A program made the position numbers and the translations under genes. Shown here in pieces: positions 52,589-62,561 of a stretch of 64,000 bases of DNA. The notes below the pieces were generated by a model. That model was not told the DNA's origin. It worked only from the letters and a program-made list of their open reading frames with translations, and made no database searches. Origin of the DNA: Acidobacteriota bacterium. Lineage in GTDB: Bacteria > Acidobacteriota > Terriglobia > Acidiferrales > UBA7541. Numbering within the stretch: the first letter of the stretch is position 1; every line of letters starts with the position of its first letter. Location of the stretch: contig JABCZK010000007.1 of assembly GCA_013289695.1 (NCBI GenBank), forward strand, positions 62,001 through 126,000, written 5' to 3'.

Positions 52589-53515
52589 ATGCGAAAGCTG
52601 CAGGGATTGCGCTGCGGAATGTTCGCGCTGCTATTTTTTTCTTTTTGCTTCTGCATACAAGCGCAAAGAAGTGAACAGCAACAGTCGCACGAGGCGACGC
52701 CGGCAAAGGATTTCGCTGTTGCGGGATTCATCGCCGGTTCCTACCGCAGCTCGAGCGGCGAGGCGATGGTGTACCGCCTCTTCCTGCCGCCGGAGTACGA
52801 CGCCGCAAAAAAATATCCGATTGTATTGTGGCTGCACGGAGCTGCGGGACGCGGCTCGGATAATTTTTCGCAGCTTGTGGGCGGAAATGCCGCCGGCTCA
52901 CGCTTTTGGACCACGCCGGAAAATCAGGCGAAGTATCACGCGTTCGTCCTCGCGCCGCAGGTGGACGCAACCAAAGGCTGGGCGCGCCCGCATGCCAACA
53001 CGCCTCCGGTGGCGATTCGTTTGGCGCTGGAAATTCTCGATACGATCGAGAAACAGTACAGCATTGATCGCGCGCGCGAGTACGTCGTTGGCCAATCCAT
53101 GGGCGGTGAAGGCGTGTGGGCGGCGTTGTCGATCGCGCCGCAGCGATTTGCCGCAGCCATTGCGCTCTGCGGGTACGGCGATGCCTACATGATTCCGCGC
53201 GTGGCGAAAGTTCCGGTGTGGATATTTCAAGGCGAAGAAGATCCGCTCGTGCCGGTCAGGCGCGCGCGGGAGTGGGTGGCGGAATTGCGCAAAGCTGGCG
53301 GAGCGCCAAAGTACACGGAGTACTCCAGCATTGGTCACAACGTGTGGGACGTGGCGTTTGGCGAACCGGGGTTGGCGGAGTGGCTGTTTTCGCACGGGAA
53401 CGCCGCGGCAGAGAGGGCGGGTCTTAGACCCGCCCCTACGGGGTCACACCATGAAATCAGACCGTGGACGTGGTTGGGCATCACTACAAACGCAGCCAAT
53501 TCCAAACGCGCATAG
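52589..53515 (+). CDS. Secreted alpha/beta hydrolase (phospholipase/carboxylesterase-like)
   Basis: 308 residues. Signal peptide (FALLFFSFCFCIQAQ); IVLWLHGAAGRGSDN is the oxyanion strand; GQSMGGEGVW has the nucleophile Ser, EEDPLVPV the acid and SIGHNVWD the His. It is an esterase of the LpqC/predicted peptidase type. The fold ends near LAEWLFSHG; the remaining tail (ERAGLRPAPTGSHHE and beyond) comes from reading through REP copy 4 and a transposase remnant, so it is not conserved protein. Confidence 0.88.
   Translation: MRKLQGLRCGMFALLFFSFCFCIQAQRSEQQQSHEATPAKDFAVAGFIAGSYRSSSGEAMVYRLFLPPEYDAAKKYPIVLWLHGAAGRGSDNFSQLVGGNAAGSRFWTTPENQAKYHAFVLAPQVDATKGWARPHANTPPVAIRLALEILDTIEKQYSIDRAREYVVGQSMGGEGVWAALSIAPQRFAAAIALCGYGDAYMIPRVAKVPVWIFQGEEDPLVPVRRAREWVAELRKAGGAPKYTEYSSIGHNVWDVAFGEPGLAEWLFSHGNAAAERAGLRPAPTGSHHEIRPWTWLGITTNAANSKRA
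53414..53437. repeat. REP-like palindrome, copy 4
   Basis: GGGCGGGTC (53415-53423) and GACCCGCCC (53427-53435) around TTA, in the 3' end of the esterase gene and next to the RAYT remnant. Confidence 0.85.
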
Positions 53516-53715
53516 TGATAAGCAAGTTCGAACCAACATTCCAAGACAATGCAGCCCATCGCGCTGCGCCGCAGCGTCCCTTCACAAACGACGCCGAGAG
53601 ACGTCTTCCGTTCGCTGGTGCAGATTGTGAGGAAATATACCGCTGCAGTCGAGTCATCGAAGCTCTTCCGGCGCAGACTGCTGCGCCGGGGAAGCAGAGG
53701 TGGGGAAGGACACAT
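53449..53715 (-). pseudogene. Truncated REP-associated tyrosine transposase (RAYT)
   Basis: The frame reads RRKSFDDSTAAVYFLTICTS, then a SERKTSLG stretch, and ends LAAFVVMPNHVHGLISW. The last has the HUH motif NHVH of Y1-type RAYT transposases, and the start matches their N-terminus. After W89 the sequence becomes a REP palindrome and the catalytic-Tyr half is gone. It is a remnant, adjacent to the REP it would mobilise. Confidence 0.83.
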
Positions 53716-53760: not shown

Positions 53761-53792
53761 AAAAAAACAGCCCCGGATTGCGCCGGGGCTGT
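53761..53792 (-). terminator. Rho-independent terminator after the radical SAM gene
   Basis: A perfect 10-base stem ACAGCCCCGG / CCGGGGCTGT with loop ATTGCG; on the minus strand it is followed by seven T. It begins about 31 bases after the stop at 53824. Confidence 0.92.
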
Positions 53793-53823
53793 TGGCCTTG
53801 CTTACCCTGCGGAGATTGTTGAG

Positions 53824-56010
53824 TTAGTCGCCGGCTACTGCGGCTTCTGCTTCGGGCTTTTCGACCTTGGCTGTGCCGTGGCCGTTCGCGTGGCCATTGC
53901 CGTTTGCCGGAGCAATCTGCACTGGCTTTACCGTTACGCCGGGAACCGCGCTGAGGATCTGTTGCATCGAGCCGATTTGAACGACGGGCTCTGTGGACTT
54001 CTTCAGAACGAGTTCTTCGTAAATGCGGCGGACTTTGGCAGCCTCTTCGAACGCTTTCTTGCGGCGAATGCGGTCTTCTTCGGCCGCAGTCACCGGAATA
54101 TCATGTTCCAGGTGGCGAACGCGCGACGCGTCTTCGGCATCAATGCGGAGCGAGTGCTCGTAACTCTGCAGATTGACATTCTTGCCCTTAGCGAAGACGT
54201 CGTGCTTGCCGTGTTCCTTGTACCACTGGGCGACGGTGGCGTTCTTGTGCATGTTCTCGATGATTTTGCGCCAGCCCACGCCGGTGTTGTACGCGCAGAA
54301 GGAAATTTCACCCTGCTGCGTGGCGTAGGGAATGATGCACATTTCGGTGCGGCGGAAATCGTAGTTGAAAAGATCCTGGAACCACATGCCGGCGATGAAG
54401 AGGAAGTTCCAAGGATCTTCCTTACGGCGCTTCATGGCGTCTTCGAAGGTGCGGTCGCCGGAAACCTTACCGTACTTCTTGTCCGCGTTTCCGGAGAGCG
54501 CGTACGTCTTATCGAATTTCTTCCAAAGATCCTTCAGCCGCAAACTGGGCGGCCCCTGGAAGGGACTGTAATTCTTCAAGACGGCCATCGCCATCATAAA
54601 GTTGGAGAAGGTCTTGCCGCGGGCCGCATCGGTAATTGCCGCGACGTCCTTCGTCAGCTGTTGTGCGTTCAGGAAGCGCGGAACCGGCGCCCACTCTTTG
54701 GTTTCCTTGTTGATCATCAACGCCGTGCCGACGCCGCAGTTCGGATGGCAGCCGCAGGAGAGCGAACCCCACTGCGAGTCGGGGCCGTGTACCAGATCCG
54801 AAAAGCCCGCGAAGGTGCTGATGAAGGAAATCGGGAACCAGTCGCGCGTGGGCTCGACTTTGCCGACTTGTGTGCTGACGTCCTTTGCCAAGTGCGAAAG
54901 CGTGTAACGCTGGCGGATGCGGCGTTCCGGAGTGATTTCCTCGTCGCGTCCGGTAAAGGAAACAGGCTGGAAGGACACGAAAGAGATTTTCTTGGGGTTT
55001 TCCATCGCGAACTTGACGATCGGGCCCACCTGATCGTTGTTCACGTTGTTGACGATGGTGGTGACCAGCACGATTTCAATGCCGGCTTCGTGCATGTTTT
55101 CGATGGCGCGAAGTTTCACGTCGAAGAGGTTACCCACCTGGCGGTGGCTGTTGGCGTCGTTGCCGATGCCGTCGAACTGCAGGTAAGCGTAGCGCATGCC
55201 TGCTTCGAAAGCTGCCTTGCAGAATTCCTTGCTCTTTGCGAACTCGATGCCGTTGGTCGCGGCCTGCACGCTGTTGTAGCCGACTTTGCGCGCGTAACGC
55301 ACCGCGTCAATAAACCGCGGGTGCATGGTCGGTTCGCCACCGGAGAACTGCACCGACATCTGACGGCGGGGCTTGATCTTGGTGGCGTTCTCGAGAATTT
55401 CCTGAATTTCTTCCCAGCTTAGCTCGTGAACATAGCCGACCTGGTTCGCGTCCATGAAGCAGGGGTCGCACATCATGTTGCAGCGGTTGGTTAGGTCCAC
55501 GGTAAGAACCGAACCTCGGCCGTGGCGAACCGTGCTGGAACCGTGGCGATGCAGGCCTTCGTCGTTGTGCGCCGGAATATCGCGGCCGGGGAAATTCTTT
55601 TCGATCCATTCCAGGAACTTGGCATCCACAGCCATCAAGTCTTCAAACTTGCCGTGAATGGCGCATTCTTTCACCATCCAGACCTGGCCGTCGCGCTCAA
55701 TAATTTGCGCTTTGATTTCGCCTACTTTTTCATGAACCAGATCGGTCCAGTCTTTTTTACCGTTGATGATTAGATCGCGCGCTTCGCGCACACAATCGGG
55801 ACACAGTGAATCCGTGGTACGCGGCCAGCCGAGCGTCGGCTTGGACTTTTCCCAGGACTTCAGCAACGGCTTATCAGACCACTTCGGTGTGAACGAAGGG
55901 TTCGGATTAAATTTATTGAAGTACTGAATCGTGTTGAATGTGGCGCCGGCAGTCTTGCACAGCGCCCAATCGAACGATTTCCAAAGTTTTGTGCTTATCG
56001 CGTTCGGCAT
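53824..56010 (-). CDS. Radical SAM protein resembling tetraether/membrane-spanning lipid synthases
   Basis: 728 residues, ribosome binding site AAAGGTGG 5 bases before the ATG. Cys map: C70 and C73 (CPDC), C116 (VKECAIHG), radical SAM C177/C181/C184 (CNMMCDPC), SAM-binding GGEP at 224-227, then C419, C421 and C425 (SCGCHPNC), C558 and C572. This is the layout of archaeal Tes (tetraether synthase, MJ0619-like), which has one radical SAM and several auxiliary Fe-S clusters. Bacterial homologs are implicated in joining lipid tails, as in the iso-diabolic acid of Acidobacteriota. The tail after 690 is Ala/Gly/Asn/His-rich. Lipid coupling is an inference from family; radical SAM chemistry is clear. 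Transcribed alone, with its own terminator. Confidence 0.85.
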   Translation of the reverse strand: MPNAISTKLWKSFDWALCKTAGATFNTIQYFNKFNPNPSFTPKWSDKPLLKSWEKSKPTLGWPRTTDSLCPDCVREARDLIINGKKDWTDLVHEKVGEIKAQIIERDGQVWMVKECAIHGKFEDLMAVDAKFLEWIEKNFPGRDIPAHNDEGLHRHGSSTVRHGRGSVLTVDLTNRCNMMCDPCFMDANQVGYVHELSWEEIQEILENATKIKPRRQMSVQFSGGEPTMHPRFIDAVRYARKVGYNSVQAATNGIEFAKSKEFCKAAFEAGMRYAYLQFDGIGNDANSHRQVGNLFDVKLRAIENMHEAGIEIVLVTTIVNNVNNDQVGPIVKFAMENPKKISFVSFQPVSFTGRDEEITPERRIRQRYTLSHLAKDVSTQVGKVEPTRDWFPISFISTFAGFSDLVHGPDSQWGSLSCGCHPNCGVGTALMINKETKEWAPVPRFLNAQQLTKDVAAITDAARGKTFSNFMMAMAVLKNYSPFQGPPSLRLKDLWKKFDKTYALSGNADKKYGKVSGDRTFEDAMKRRKEDPWNFLFIAGMWFQDLFNYDFRRTEMCIIPYATQQGEISFCAYNTGVGWRKIIENMHKNATVAQWYKEHGKHDVFAKGKNVNLQSYEHSLRIDAEDASRVRHLEHDIPVTAAEEDRIRRKKAFEEAAKVRRIYEELVLKKSTEPVVQIGSMQQILSAVPGVTVKPVQIAPANGNGHANGHGTAKVEKPEAEAAVAGD

Positions 56011-56076
56011 AATTCCACCTTTCCCTTTCGAACGACCTTCTAAAATATCGCTTGAATCCCCCGAGGCCTGACCCCT

Positions 56077-56107
56077 ACGGATGAGCTACATCCGTAACCA
56101 GTTACGG
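56077..56107. promoter_or_regulatory. Overlapping hairpins in the leader of the radical SAM gene
   Basis: ACGGATG (56077-56083) pairs with CATCCGT (56089-56095), and CCGTAAC (56092-56098) pairs with GTTACGG (56101-56107). They share 4 bases, so only one can form at a time. They lie about 65-95 bases upstream of the minus-strand ATG at 56010. Confidence 0.5.
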
Positions 56108-56242
56108 TACCAAAGTTTGCACGGTTTCAAACTGGGCGTCTAGGAGGGTGCGTCTAAAGGTGCAATTCGGGGGTTGAACGGCACCCAGGCGCAGCCAATG
56201 GAGAGGCCCAAGTACCAGCCGGACTATGTTTTAGCCCTGTTT

Positions 56243-57475
56243 TCAGTCCAAGTTGAGGGGCGTGCGCAAGACGCCGATCGCGAAATGCGCCAGATGGGGA
56301 GCATCGTCGTCGAGCTGGATCCAGCGGACCACGCAGTGGTCCTTCAGATACTGCGAGACTTTCGCTTCGCCGATGCCCAAATGCTCGGCGAGTTTCGTTT
56401 TCAGGCCGCTGTCGAAGGACGGACGTCCGCCGCGAACAGGTTTGGTGGTGCTGCGTCCGCTGCCGCGGGCGAGATTTCCCAGGCCGACGCGCAGCGTCTG
56501 GCAAGCCTCGATGTAGTACGAAGTAATCTGGTCAGAATCCGAAAGCAGGAATACGCCCGGCCCGGCAGGAGCCGAATCCGATTCGTCCAGGCGATGCAGC
56601 GGGCTGGAAACCAAGCGGCGCAACATGGATTCCAATTTGGACATGCGCGAGGCCAGGGCTGGATCGCCGGCGCGGCCGTGCGCGGTGCGCTCCGAAGGGA
56701 GCATCGGAGCGGCTTGCTCGGCGGGCGGCGTGTATTCCAGTTCTTGCGGCGCAGTGGCTGCCGCAACCGGGACGCGTTCATAGGTTTCGGTGTGCGGGGT
56801 CGGGCGCGAAGGCTGAAATCGTGGCGCCGGCACGCGCGCCTGTGGCGCAGCGGACGACGGTGGCAGCAGAGCGGCGCTAGACTCCGCGTATGCTTGCGAA
56901 GGCAAGCCGGCGGCGGCGGGAGCGCCTTTGCGACGGCGGCCTCGGCCACCACGGCGCCCGCGGCGGCGCTTTTTCTTGCCGGACGGGTCGGTATCGGCCG
57001 CTCCGGCGCCGCTGGGAGGCGTGGCATCGGAAAGATGCACGACCTCTACTTCGATCGCGTCGCCGGTGTAATCCACGCCGTCTTCTGGAATCTCGCCAAG
57101 GGCCAGGCGCGGTTGCGTCCCTTCCGAATCGCTTGGGCTGCTGTACTCGTGGCTCGGCTCAATTTCCGTGCTGCTTGTTGCCGCAAACACAGGCTCAGGA
57201 CTGGGTTTAGCACCCGCCACCGGAATCGGCGCGCCCAATCGCGCTAGAGCTTCCTCGGCTTTCTTCTTCCAATCAGCGCGGCGGAATCGTTCCGCTGCAA
57301 TTGTGTACCACTTCACGGCGTCCTCATTTCGTTCGGCTTTTTCTGCGACGGCTCCCAGCTCCCAGGCCACCATCGCGTCGTGTGTGCGCTGGTACAGCTC
57401 GGTAAGTTTCGTCTGTGCGTCGGCGCTGTTCTTCGCCTTGCGAATACGCGCCTGGATTTGCCGCCAATCTGCCAT
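56243..57475 (-). CDS. Arg-rich protein of unknown function
   Basis: About 410 residues from ATG 57475. The N-terminal 75 residues are helical, TPR-like (AVAEKAERNEDAVKWYTIAA). A disordered middle contains KKKRRRGRRGGRGRRRK, an RNA- or DNA-binding type patch. The C-terminal 90 residues may be a HTH-like fold (LKTKLAEHLGIGEAKVSQYL). I do not recognise the family; a nucleic-acid-binding role is a guess from composition. Confidence 0.6.
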   Translation of the reverse strand: MADWRQIQARIRKAKNSADAQTKLTELYQRTHDAMVAWELGAVAEKAERNEDAVKWYTIAAERFRRADWKKKAEEALARLGAPIPVAGAKPSPEPVFAATSSTEIEPSHEYSSPSDSEGTQPRLALGEIPEDGVDYTGDAIEVEVVHLSDATPPSGAGAADTDPSGKKKRRRGRRGGRGRRRKGAPAAAGLPSQAYAESSAALLPPSSAAPQARVPAPRFQPSRPTPHTETYERVPVAAATAPQELEYTPPAEQAAPMLPSERTAHGRAGDPALASRMSKLESMLRRLVSSPLHRLDESDSAPAGPGVFLLSDSDQITSYYIEACQTLRVGLGNLARGSGRSTTKPVRGGRPSFDSGLKTKLAEHLGIGEAKVSQYLKDHCVVRWIQLDDDAPHLAHFAIGVLRTPLNLD

Positions 57476-57644
57476 GGCCGCATTGTAGCAGCCGATTCGG
57501 GGATAGGCTAATGAAAGCGATGCCCGGTCGTGGTTCAGGTTCGGATGAATGCGTTTAGCAGGCACGGCGTTGGCGCAGGCGCGGCTACAGCAAACAATTG
57601 CTGTTCAATCTGTGGCAACGCCTCGTTGTTGCGTTGCGGTTGAG

Positions 57645-61400: not shown

Positions 61401-62561
61401 ATGGATTTGGCCGGACGGACACGCTGGATTTGCGAGCAGGCACGCGAGATGGGGCTTGATCTGTGCGGCGTGGCGCCCGCGGCTGCTTTCCCGGAACTGG
61501 CGCAGTTTTCTGCGTGGCTTGGGCGCGGACATGCGGGGGAGATGAATTACCTGCGCGATGATCGCCGCGTGGATCCGCGACTGGCGCTGGACGGCGCGCG
61601 CAGTTTGATCGTGGTGGCGCTGAACTACAACTCCCCGCTGCCCTACTCCACCGAACAGGCTGGCATCCACGATGCAGGCTCCCCGCAGGGATGGATTTCG
61701 CGCTACGCGTGGGGTAACGATTACCACGAAGTGCTCCGCGAAAAACTGAATGCACTCGTCGCGCGGATGCGTGAGCGGTGGCCCGAGCCTTTTGATGCGC
61801 GCGCTTACGTGGATACGGGGCCAGTCGTCGAGCGCGTGGCTGCAAAATATGCGGGGCTCGGTTGGCTCGCGAAAAATACCTGCCTGATTAACGAGCAGCT
61901 CGGTTCATGGCTGTTTCTCGGCGTCGTTGTCACGACGCTGGAGCTGGAAGCGTCGCTAGCGCCGAACGAACCGCCCGCCGCCGATCTTTGCGGAAATTGC
62001 ACGTTGTGCCTGGACGCCTGCCCCACGCAAGCGTTTGCCGCACCCTATGTGCTGGATGCGCGCCGCTGTATTTCTTATCTTACGATCGAGCTGCGCGGCA
62101 CGATTCCGGAGGAGCTGCGGCCGGCGATGGGGAATGCCGTGATTGGCTGCGACATTTGCCAGGACGTGTGTCCGTGGAATCGCAAGTCGCCCGTGACGGA
62201 GCTGGCGGCGTTTCAGCCTCGCCGGATCGAGCGGGACGGCGAAAATGGAAAACAGAAAATGGAAAATAGCGCGACGTTGTTTGCACCGGAGCTGGAGTGG
62301 CTCGCGCCTCTAACGCAGGAAGAGTTTAGCCGGATTTTTCGCGGTAGCGCGGTGAAACGCGCGAAGTGGCGTGGGTTAGTCCGCAACGCTTGCGTCGCGC
62401 TGGGAAATTCCGGCGTGGCGCGCGGATCGGAAGCCTGCGCGCGAATTGAATCGTTGCTCGAACGCCTCGCCGCATCCGACGATTCGCTGATCGCGGAACA
62501 CGCTCAGTGGGCAATGAAGCGCCTCGGCGCGCCTGATGGTTCGCCGCACAGCTCGGATTGA
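61401..62561 (+). CDS. queG: Epoxyqueuosine reductase QueG
   Basis: 386 residues. The catalytic acid is in AYVDTGPVVERVAAKYAGLGW; DLCGNCTLCLDACPTQAF and GCDICQDVCPWN carry the two [4Fe-4S] clusters. It needs cobalamin, as does the pathway supplied by cobO. It reduces epoxyqueuosine to queuosine in tRNA. An internal low-complexity insertion (ENGKQKMENS) after the clusters comes from an A-rich repeat shared with 22788. A broken copy of the 5' end is at 58249. Confidence 0.95.
   Translation: MDLAGRTRWICEQAREMGLDLCGVAPAAAFPELAQFSAWLGRGHAGEMNYLRDDRRVDPRLALDGARSLIVVALNYNSPLPYSTEQAGIHDAGSPQGWISRYAWGNDYHEVLREKLNALVARMRERWPEPFDARAYVDTGPVVERVAAKYAGLGWLAKNTCLINEQLGSWLFLGVVVTTLELEASLAPNEPPAADLCGNCTLCLDACPTQAFAAPYVLDARRCISYLTIELRGTIPEELRPAMGNAVIGCDICQDVCPWNRKSPVTELAAFQPRRIERDGENGKQKMENSATLFAPELEWLAPLTQEEFSRIFRGSAVKRAKWRGLVRNACVALGNSGVARGSEACARIESLLERLAASDDSLIAEHAQWAMKRLGAPDGSPHSSD
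62248..62267. repeat. A-rich 20-base repeat inside queG, copy 2
   Basis: Identical over 20 bases to the reverse strand at 22788-22807. Here it lies in the coding part and inserts a Lys/Asn/Met-rich stretch into QueG. Confidence 0.75.

Follow-up and report, generated by a model that had tools for sequence, protein, structure and literature searches.

Which enzyme makes the membrane-spanning lipids of Acidobacteriota is the question raised by this locus. The brGDGTs consist of chains like iso-diabolic acid and are the basis of proxies for soil temperature and pH that are in wide use, and we know of no proof of the acidobacterial brGDGT synthase in the literature examined. The window (the whole stretch of DNA that was analysed, 64,000 nucleotides of an acidobacterial contig) carries a gene for a radical SAM protein, which an earlier note made from the letters alone had assigned to the type of the archaeal tetraether lipid synthase (Tes). 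We give a probability of about 0.75 to the reading that this protein is a Tes-family membrane-spanning-lipid synthase, which would couple iso-C15 tails to iso-diabolic-acid lipids. The gene family is clean, nearly all genomes sampled from the class have it, and the genome of the window carries one copy only, which makes the synthase question testable. The features of the locus are the following:

53824-56010, minus strand: gene of the 728-residue long-type Tes-like radical SAM protein (open reading frame from ATG; profile, PDB and fold matches; tree)
55816-56010, minus strand: N-terminal extension, residues 1-65, with a predicted helix at 4-32 (alignment and model)
55654-55803, minus strand: rubredoxin-like site, C70-x2-C73-x42-C116-x2-H119 (PF23545 and alignment)
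55513-55563, minus strand: N-cluster region, residues 150-166, HxHGxS...GRG without cysteine, where Tes binds its [4Fe-4S]N (alignment)
55459-55482, minus strand: radical SAM motif, C177xxxC181xxC184 (Pfam and alignment)
55330-55341, minus strand: GGEP motif, residues 224-227 (sequence)
54736-54756, minus strand: C419-x-C421-H422-P-x-C425, in which C425 corresponds to Tes C338 (alignment)
54385-54387, minus strand: M542, corresponding to the labile Tes ligand Met439 (alignment)
54295-54339, minus strand: C558 (Tes C455), Y562 (Tyr459) and C572 (C470) of the C-terminal cluster domain (alignment)
53827-54213, minus strand: C-terminal extension, residues 600-728, with a helix at 642-667, an NG/H-rich linker and a terminal VAGD (model and tail comparison)
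53766-53793, minus strand: intrinsic-terminator-like hairpin of 11 pairs with a T-rich tail, just 3' of the stop codon (terminator scan)
56112-56118, minus strand: AAACTTT block, a possible regulatory element, 108 nt before the start

Family assignment

The reading frame, the GGEP and the cysteines listed in the earlier note (C70xxC73, C116, the CxxxCxxC at 177-184, the CxC-x3-C at 419-425, C558 and C572) are where it placed them, and the full set of cysteines in the 728 residues is 18, 70, 73, 116, 177, 181, 184, 264, 419, 421, 425, 558 and 572. The best NCBIfam model was Tes (NF045702, tetraether lipid synthase), with 323.2 bits and an E-value of 2.6e-96, far beyond chance. The best PDB chains by sequence were those of GDGT-MAS (7TOL and 7TOM, 7.6e-60), followed at a distance by the next match (3.6e-7). 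In the same way, the AlphaFold model of the protein (built with 46 sequences, mean pLDDT 72.6) found 7TOM (1.3e-22) and 7TOL (1.6e-21) at the top of the Foldseek search, with TM-scores of 0.69 when normalised to the target and 0.48-0.49 when normalised to the query, and the first structure that was not a Tes was MoaA (4.4e-6). Thus family profile, PDB sequence and fold agree on Tes, and the Tes-type call, together with the suggestion that the protein probably makes membrane-spanning lipids, is borne out as far as sequence comparison goes. The superposition on Tes, with an rmsd of 8 A over 578 columns, is too coarse for fine geometry, and the pLDDT fell below 50 at residues 146-151, 153-167, 182-194, 558-567 and 569-580, that is, around the metal sites.

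Tes is the best family, but the score lies below the curated Tes cut-off of 450 bits, and four other long types scored 284-343 bits against the same profile. On the other hand, among 6 of the 12 short acidobacterial homologs that were tested, 5 passed this cut-off; the sixth, L050, obtained 439.9 bits from a sequence whose start had been shortened in the extraction. We therefore regard the protein, on its sequence, as a variant subfamily of Tes, which as a strict Tes fails two defining tests. Radical_SAM and the HMPTM zinc-ribbon domain exceeded their Pfam cut-offs, and Fer4_12 did so by a narrow margin; PF23545 covered the rubredoxin-like site with 54 bits against a cut-off of 27.

These matches also bear on the possibility that the protein is a peptide or cofactor maturase of the MoaA, NirJ or SPASM type that merely resembles Tes. 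The radical SAM core does match many maturase profiles weakly, and TrsS is the second-best NCBIfam model with 218.2 bits. However, Tes is 105 bits higher, the maturase cut-offs are far away (490 for TrsS, 82.5 bits against 650 for NirJ1, 69.4 against 284.05 for MoaA), the protein has the PF23545 domain and the residues of the Tes C-terminal cluster, and no gene for a precursor peptide or a cofactor was recognised by Pfam among the nine neighbours. Therefore we consider a maturase very improbable, and the closer kinship with a peptide-maturase family, which the earlier note had named as the outcome against its proposal, was not observed.

Regarding the ends of the protein, the low-complexity tail described in the earlier note is indeed there and is NG/H-rich, but it is not unusual, because NG-rich tails recur in the gp2-like relatives and 12 of 20 listed tails end in AGD. 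The N-terminal helix may be amphipathic in part of the family, as a membrane anchor would be: 51 of 112 long types exceeded their shuffles at 0.05, but the window protein did not (p 0.215).

Metal-site ligands and the proposed reaction

We mapped the ligands on the solved Tes of M. jannaschii (GDGT-MAS, MJ0619), with which the window protein shares 146 of 489 aligned residues. According to the available part of its description, this Tes has a rubredoxin-like iron site (Rd) held by C9, C12, C33 and H36, a [4Fe-4S]N held by C73, C77, C80 and a histidine on the protein surface, the radical SAM CxxxCxxC, and a [4Fe-4S]C with Met439 as a labile ligand; Met439 and Tyr459 are completely conserved across 1000 archaeal homologs, and the M439A variant keeps activity (PMC9433317). 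From their conservation, C338, C455 and C470 would be the cysteines of the C cluster and H83 the histidine of the N cluster.

The two proteins are alike in the fold, the Rd ligands, the radical SAM cluster, the C-cluster cysteines and the equivalents of Met439 and Tyr459. They differ in the Rd loop (x42 versus x20), in the N- and C-terminal extensions, in the expected substrate, which would be a bacterial lipid, and above all in the [4Fe-4S]N, whose cysteine positions read gap, H156 and S159 in the window protein. The Tes-like cysteine map of the earlier note therefore holds for the Rd, radical SAM and C-cluster cysteines but not for the N-terminal [4Fe-4S] ligands. This gap, which the note had not noticed, is the most interesting part of the protein.

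In order to place these ligands in the family we compared 119 long-type rows, namely the window protein, 80 named rows (the best 80 of 563 named matches) and 38 others, which comprise 115 distinct sequences and 106 clusters at 95% identity, with 12 short types (L050-L058 and L062-L064). All starts were taken at the first ATG. Among 154 loci, 6 of the own genome were without a matching open reading frame and stayed out of the ligand count. A further 12 rows were dropped: the window gene itself in two copies, an unrelated protein of the own genome that was present twice (L002 and L035), and eight rows shorter than 450 aa from the first ATG (L049, L059, L060, L061, L065, L067, L068 and L150, the last of which is annotated at full length and was dropped through the start rule). 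The weak homologs L066, L069 and L151-L154, some of them without Tes ligands, were kept apart from the short types.

None of the 119 long-type rows had the N-cluster cysteines; H156 was present in all of them and S159 in 118, with an Ala in the other. All three N-cluster cysteines and the histidine were found in 12 of the 12 short types, which belong to the same superclade. The radical SAM cysteines, C425, C558, C572, M542 and Y562 were each present in 119 of 119 long types, and the first two Rd cysteines in 116 and 115, where three rows begin later in the extraction and one has a Ser. None of the 12 short types lacked a radical SAM or C-cluster ligand, and 10 of them had the first Rd cysteine, the other two being rows with a later start. 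Around the SAM site, the residues F106, Q268, S271 and R275 were kept in 119 of 119 long types. Two others differ from Tes: R210, which there hydrogen-bonds 5'-deoxyadenosine, is Q in the window protein and variable across the long clade, and N108, which in Tes belongs to a network of hydrogen bonds nearby, is replaced by D throughout the 119 long types (both roles in Tes from PMC9433317).

The long clade is also distinguished by its length. Of the 119 long types, 112 have an x42 Rd loop, whereas 7TOL and 10 of the 12 short types have x20; most long types have around 60-70 aa before the first Rd cysteine; and more than 100 residues follow the last C-cluster cysteine in 110 of 119 (156 in the window protein), versus 23-42 in the short types. 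Identity to 7TOL was 28-36% for the long types and 36-45% for the short types, which are 31-39% identical to the window protein.

Judged by its parts, the protein would work like Tes. The SAM bound to the C177/C181/C184 cluster would be cleaved to give a 5'-deoxyadenosyl radical, which would abstract a hydrogen at the methyl terminus of a phospholipid acyl chain, probably iso-C15. The resulting carbon radical would be bound to a sulfur atom in the C-terminal cluster (C425, C558, C572 and the labile M542), until a second radical step at the opposite chain coupled the two tails into iso-diabolic acid. The rubredoxin-like iron site is retained, perhaps for electron delivery, and the N-terminal [4Fe-4S] cluster of archaeal Tes is lost. 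Because the parts proposed for coupling are kept and the lost cluster lies on the surface of Tes, the coupling is likely to be retained while the electron route would differ. Whereas family, ligand pattern, fold match, clade and spread through the class sample come from the analysis itself, substrate, product and radical mechanism are taken by homology, and iso-C15 and iso-diabolic acid in particular from the lipids of cultured relatives. If this is true, sp3-sp3 coupling would not need [4Fe-4S]N. A family that lacks one of the four metal centres by nature is also a test of the role of that centre in Tes. Against the synthase reading count the score below the Tes cut-off, the missing metal site, the changes at R210 and N108 and the lack of recognised lipid genes among the neighbours.

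The same comparison feeds another explanation, in which the membrane-spanning lipids of Acidobacteriota come from the short cluster-complete Tes (or Mss), whereas the long type catalyses some other radical lipid reaction, such as coupling at a different position or a modification. It agrees with the short types passing the Tes cut-off and keeping the N, radical SAM and C-cluster ligands throughout, but the residues proposed for coupling are kept in the long type too, and for this and for the distribution given below we judge it unlikely. A version of our main reading, to which we give slightly less credit than to this rival, would have the [4Fe-4S]N replaced, with H156 and H154, perhaps together with C419 and C421, binding another metal. 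H154 (118 of 119) and H156, C419 and C421 (119 of 119) are well kept in the long clade; nevertheless, C421 (8 of 12) and C419 (3 of 12) also occur in short types that retain the N cluster, and residues 153-167 are among those modelled with a pLDDT below 50.

Distribution and phylogeny

A match at 1e-30 was found in 210 of 396 genomes of the phylum; a hand count gave 184 with an E-value better than 1e-150, which were taken to be long types, and 26 with a weaker one. For the class, which from the named matches we take to be subdivisions 1-3 (Terriglobia), 148 of 151 genomes had a match and 146, counted by hand and including the own genome, had a long-type copy; the difference is due to two genomes whose best E-value was weaker than 1e-150 (G420 and G431). 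Three class genomes, 94-96% complete, were without any match. The own genome (87.4% complete) has one copy, its next match to the Tes profile reaching 69.6 bits, and another genome of the same genus has a copy that is 88% identical. Among the best 80 of the 563 named matches the closest were two from Acidobacteria MAGs (L089, 88% in a masked, partial row, and L070, 84%), followed by several with a gp2 label (81-83%) and by that of Candidatus Acidiferrum typicum (80%). The host of the window is therefore probably an uncultured acidobacterium of the gp2 (Acidiferrales-like) group. Four class genomes (G401, G408, G414 and G441) carry beside the main copy a second long-type paralog of around 670 aa, 53-55% identical. 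Only two of these 80 matches bear labels from outside Acidobacteriota: a 71% identical long-type copy on a contig of a Gemmatimonadetes-labelled MAG (L105), a case of transfer or mis-binning, and a 63% identical copy in a record titled as a Bordetella parapertussis MAG (L121), where the label is probably wrong.

This near-universal spread fits a core lipid enzyme, given that the cultured members of the class are rich in iso-diabolic acid. In the excerpts of the culture studies, 17 SD1/SD3 cultures contained 20-40% iso-diabolic acid, a survey of 46 strains found it in SDs 1, 3, 4 and 6 (PMC13274423), and five Terriglobales strains contained 26.8-49.2% (PMC12935467). Zeng 2022 proposed bacterial Tes homologs, including acidobacterial ones, for brGDGT synthesis, giving one homolog for E. 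aggregans (32% identity to an archaeal query) and 42 and 40% for the top two homologs, those of K. versatilis and S. usitatus; they come from the same phylum with the same proposed role, and the available part of the paper gives a single list in which cluster-complete and cluster-lost homologs are not split (PMC8941075). By these identities, the query being other than 7TOL, the E. aggregans homolog fits the long type better than the short one, and those of K. versatilis and S. usitatus would fit the short type. E. aggregans produces both iso-diabolic acid and brGDGT (PMC13274423, PMC10087280, in the parts at hand).

The cultures speak on both sides of the short-type explanation. S. usitatus has two Tes homologs, proposed for tetraether synthesis by Halamka 2022, and makes brGDGTs with no detectable iso-diabolic acid, as stated in an excerpt (PMC10087280), which agrees with that explanation and counts against ours. 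However, the single homolog of E. aggregans has the identity of a long type, nearly every genome sampled from the class has the long type, and it is the sole strong Tes-profile match in the genome of the window, at the completeness given above. These points favour a long-type synthase.

The proposed reaction of the window protein is also that of Mss, the membrane-spanning lipid synthase of T. maritima, reportedly described by Sahonero-Canavesi in 2022; the likeness is one of description only. As the cited excerpts put it, Mss of T. maritima was confirmed by expression (PMC11604127), its models share the Tes architecture and a 2026 Bacillota paper screens for Mss and Ger (both PMC13274423), and a Black Sea paper searched for Tes and Mss separately (PMC11868695).

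The tree was built from 54 chosen rows (35 of the 119 long types, the 12 short types, 7TOL and six other homologs), excluding the N-cluster columns, and was rooted on the six other homologs as outgroup. 7TOL, the 12 short and the 35 long types formed a Tes superclade with a support of 100/98, and the long types were split off by one branch (100/100, recovered in all 200 bootstrap trees). The short types did not form a clade of their own, and the long clade arises beside L050, L051 and L053; branches are long for 7TOL, L058, L051, L063 and the outgroup rows. Regarding the placement outside Tes that the earlier note had considered, the protein does group with Tes, albeit in a long subclade of its own. 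The simplest reading of the tree is that the N cluster was lost once. We see an even chance that a single ancient loss gave an acidobacterial tail-coupling subfamily without the surface [4Fe-4S]N, perhaps adapted to oxygen, which would be the main iso-diabolic-acid synthase of the class, including the uncultured gp2 soil group. Our search of literature listings and the beginnings of abstracts found no earlier description of the lost N cluster, a weak absence; Tes homologs in Acidobacteria were already known, and what looks new is the cluster-lost subfamily.

An adaptation to oxygen as the reason for the loss is no more than a suggestion, and some evidence speaks against it. Mycolicibacterium is a genus growing in air, and the CPxxCGxC is kept in Mycolicibacterium vanbaalenii as well as in three other weaker homologs, from Persicobacter, from the class of the window (L066) and from its phylum (L069). 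It is absent from two haloarchaeal homologs, and all six lie outside the Tes superclade. The physiological tests of the Terriglobales strains were run oxic, according to the available text (PMC12935467). Four haloarchaeal and Mycolicibacterium plasmid homologs (L150, L151, L153 and L154) each have a gene with a methyltransferase domain directly downstream, which marks a distinct Tes-related system.

Neighbourhood and flanking signals

The earlier note had placed the gene outside any lipid operon, and actually none of the nine neighbouring window proteins was recognised by Pfam as a lipid-tail enzyme. We compared 81 loci (80 named and the window) with flanks of up to 6 kb, many contigs being shorter, and found no conserved lipid operon among the gene clusters common to at least 6 of them. 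These clusters were the gene itself, its antisense or frame-shifted shadows, short unnamed open reading frames, a gp2-local gene found in 14 loci, a queG-like gene in 15, a pyridoxamine-oxidase-like gene in 8 and, by our own reading, a RidA-like gene in 6. PF09989, which we take as the marker of PlsA/Ger, an ether-lipid partner, was absent from the own genome (87.4% complete), but 20 of 61 class genomes have it, and so does one genome from the genus of the host.

Regarding the strong terminator of the earlier note, the hairpin at 53793-53766 on the minus strand stands directly after the stop codon and is the longest of three terminator-like sites; their number, against 3.9 expected in shuffles, proves nothing in itself. 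The "own leader" is a mixed case. The scan found no sigma-70-like promoter site 5' of the gene (0.9 expected), and there was no Rfam match or riboswitch within 55900-56400, but 11 of 13 gp2-like genes share an AAACT(A/T)T block that lies 108-182 nt 5' of the start codon, where shuffles average 0.24; the pattern was picked after viewing the alignment, and the 13 genes are related. Because it occurs upstream in just 11 of 79 named long-type loci overall, we consider this block a local feature.

Three neighbours deserve a mention. Upstream lies a 440-aa protein without a Pfam match (56246-57565, minus strand), with homologs near the gene in 14 gp2-like loci including the window. A queG-like epoxyqueuosine reductase (61401-62561, plus strand) has a homolog near the long-type gene in 15 of 81 loci, again including the window. 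Finally, a 126-aa open reading frame without a Pfam match (53335-53715, minus strand) is presumably a remnant of a REP-type transposase, which it resembles in the motif VMPNHVHGLI.
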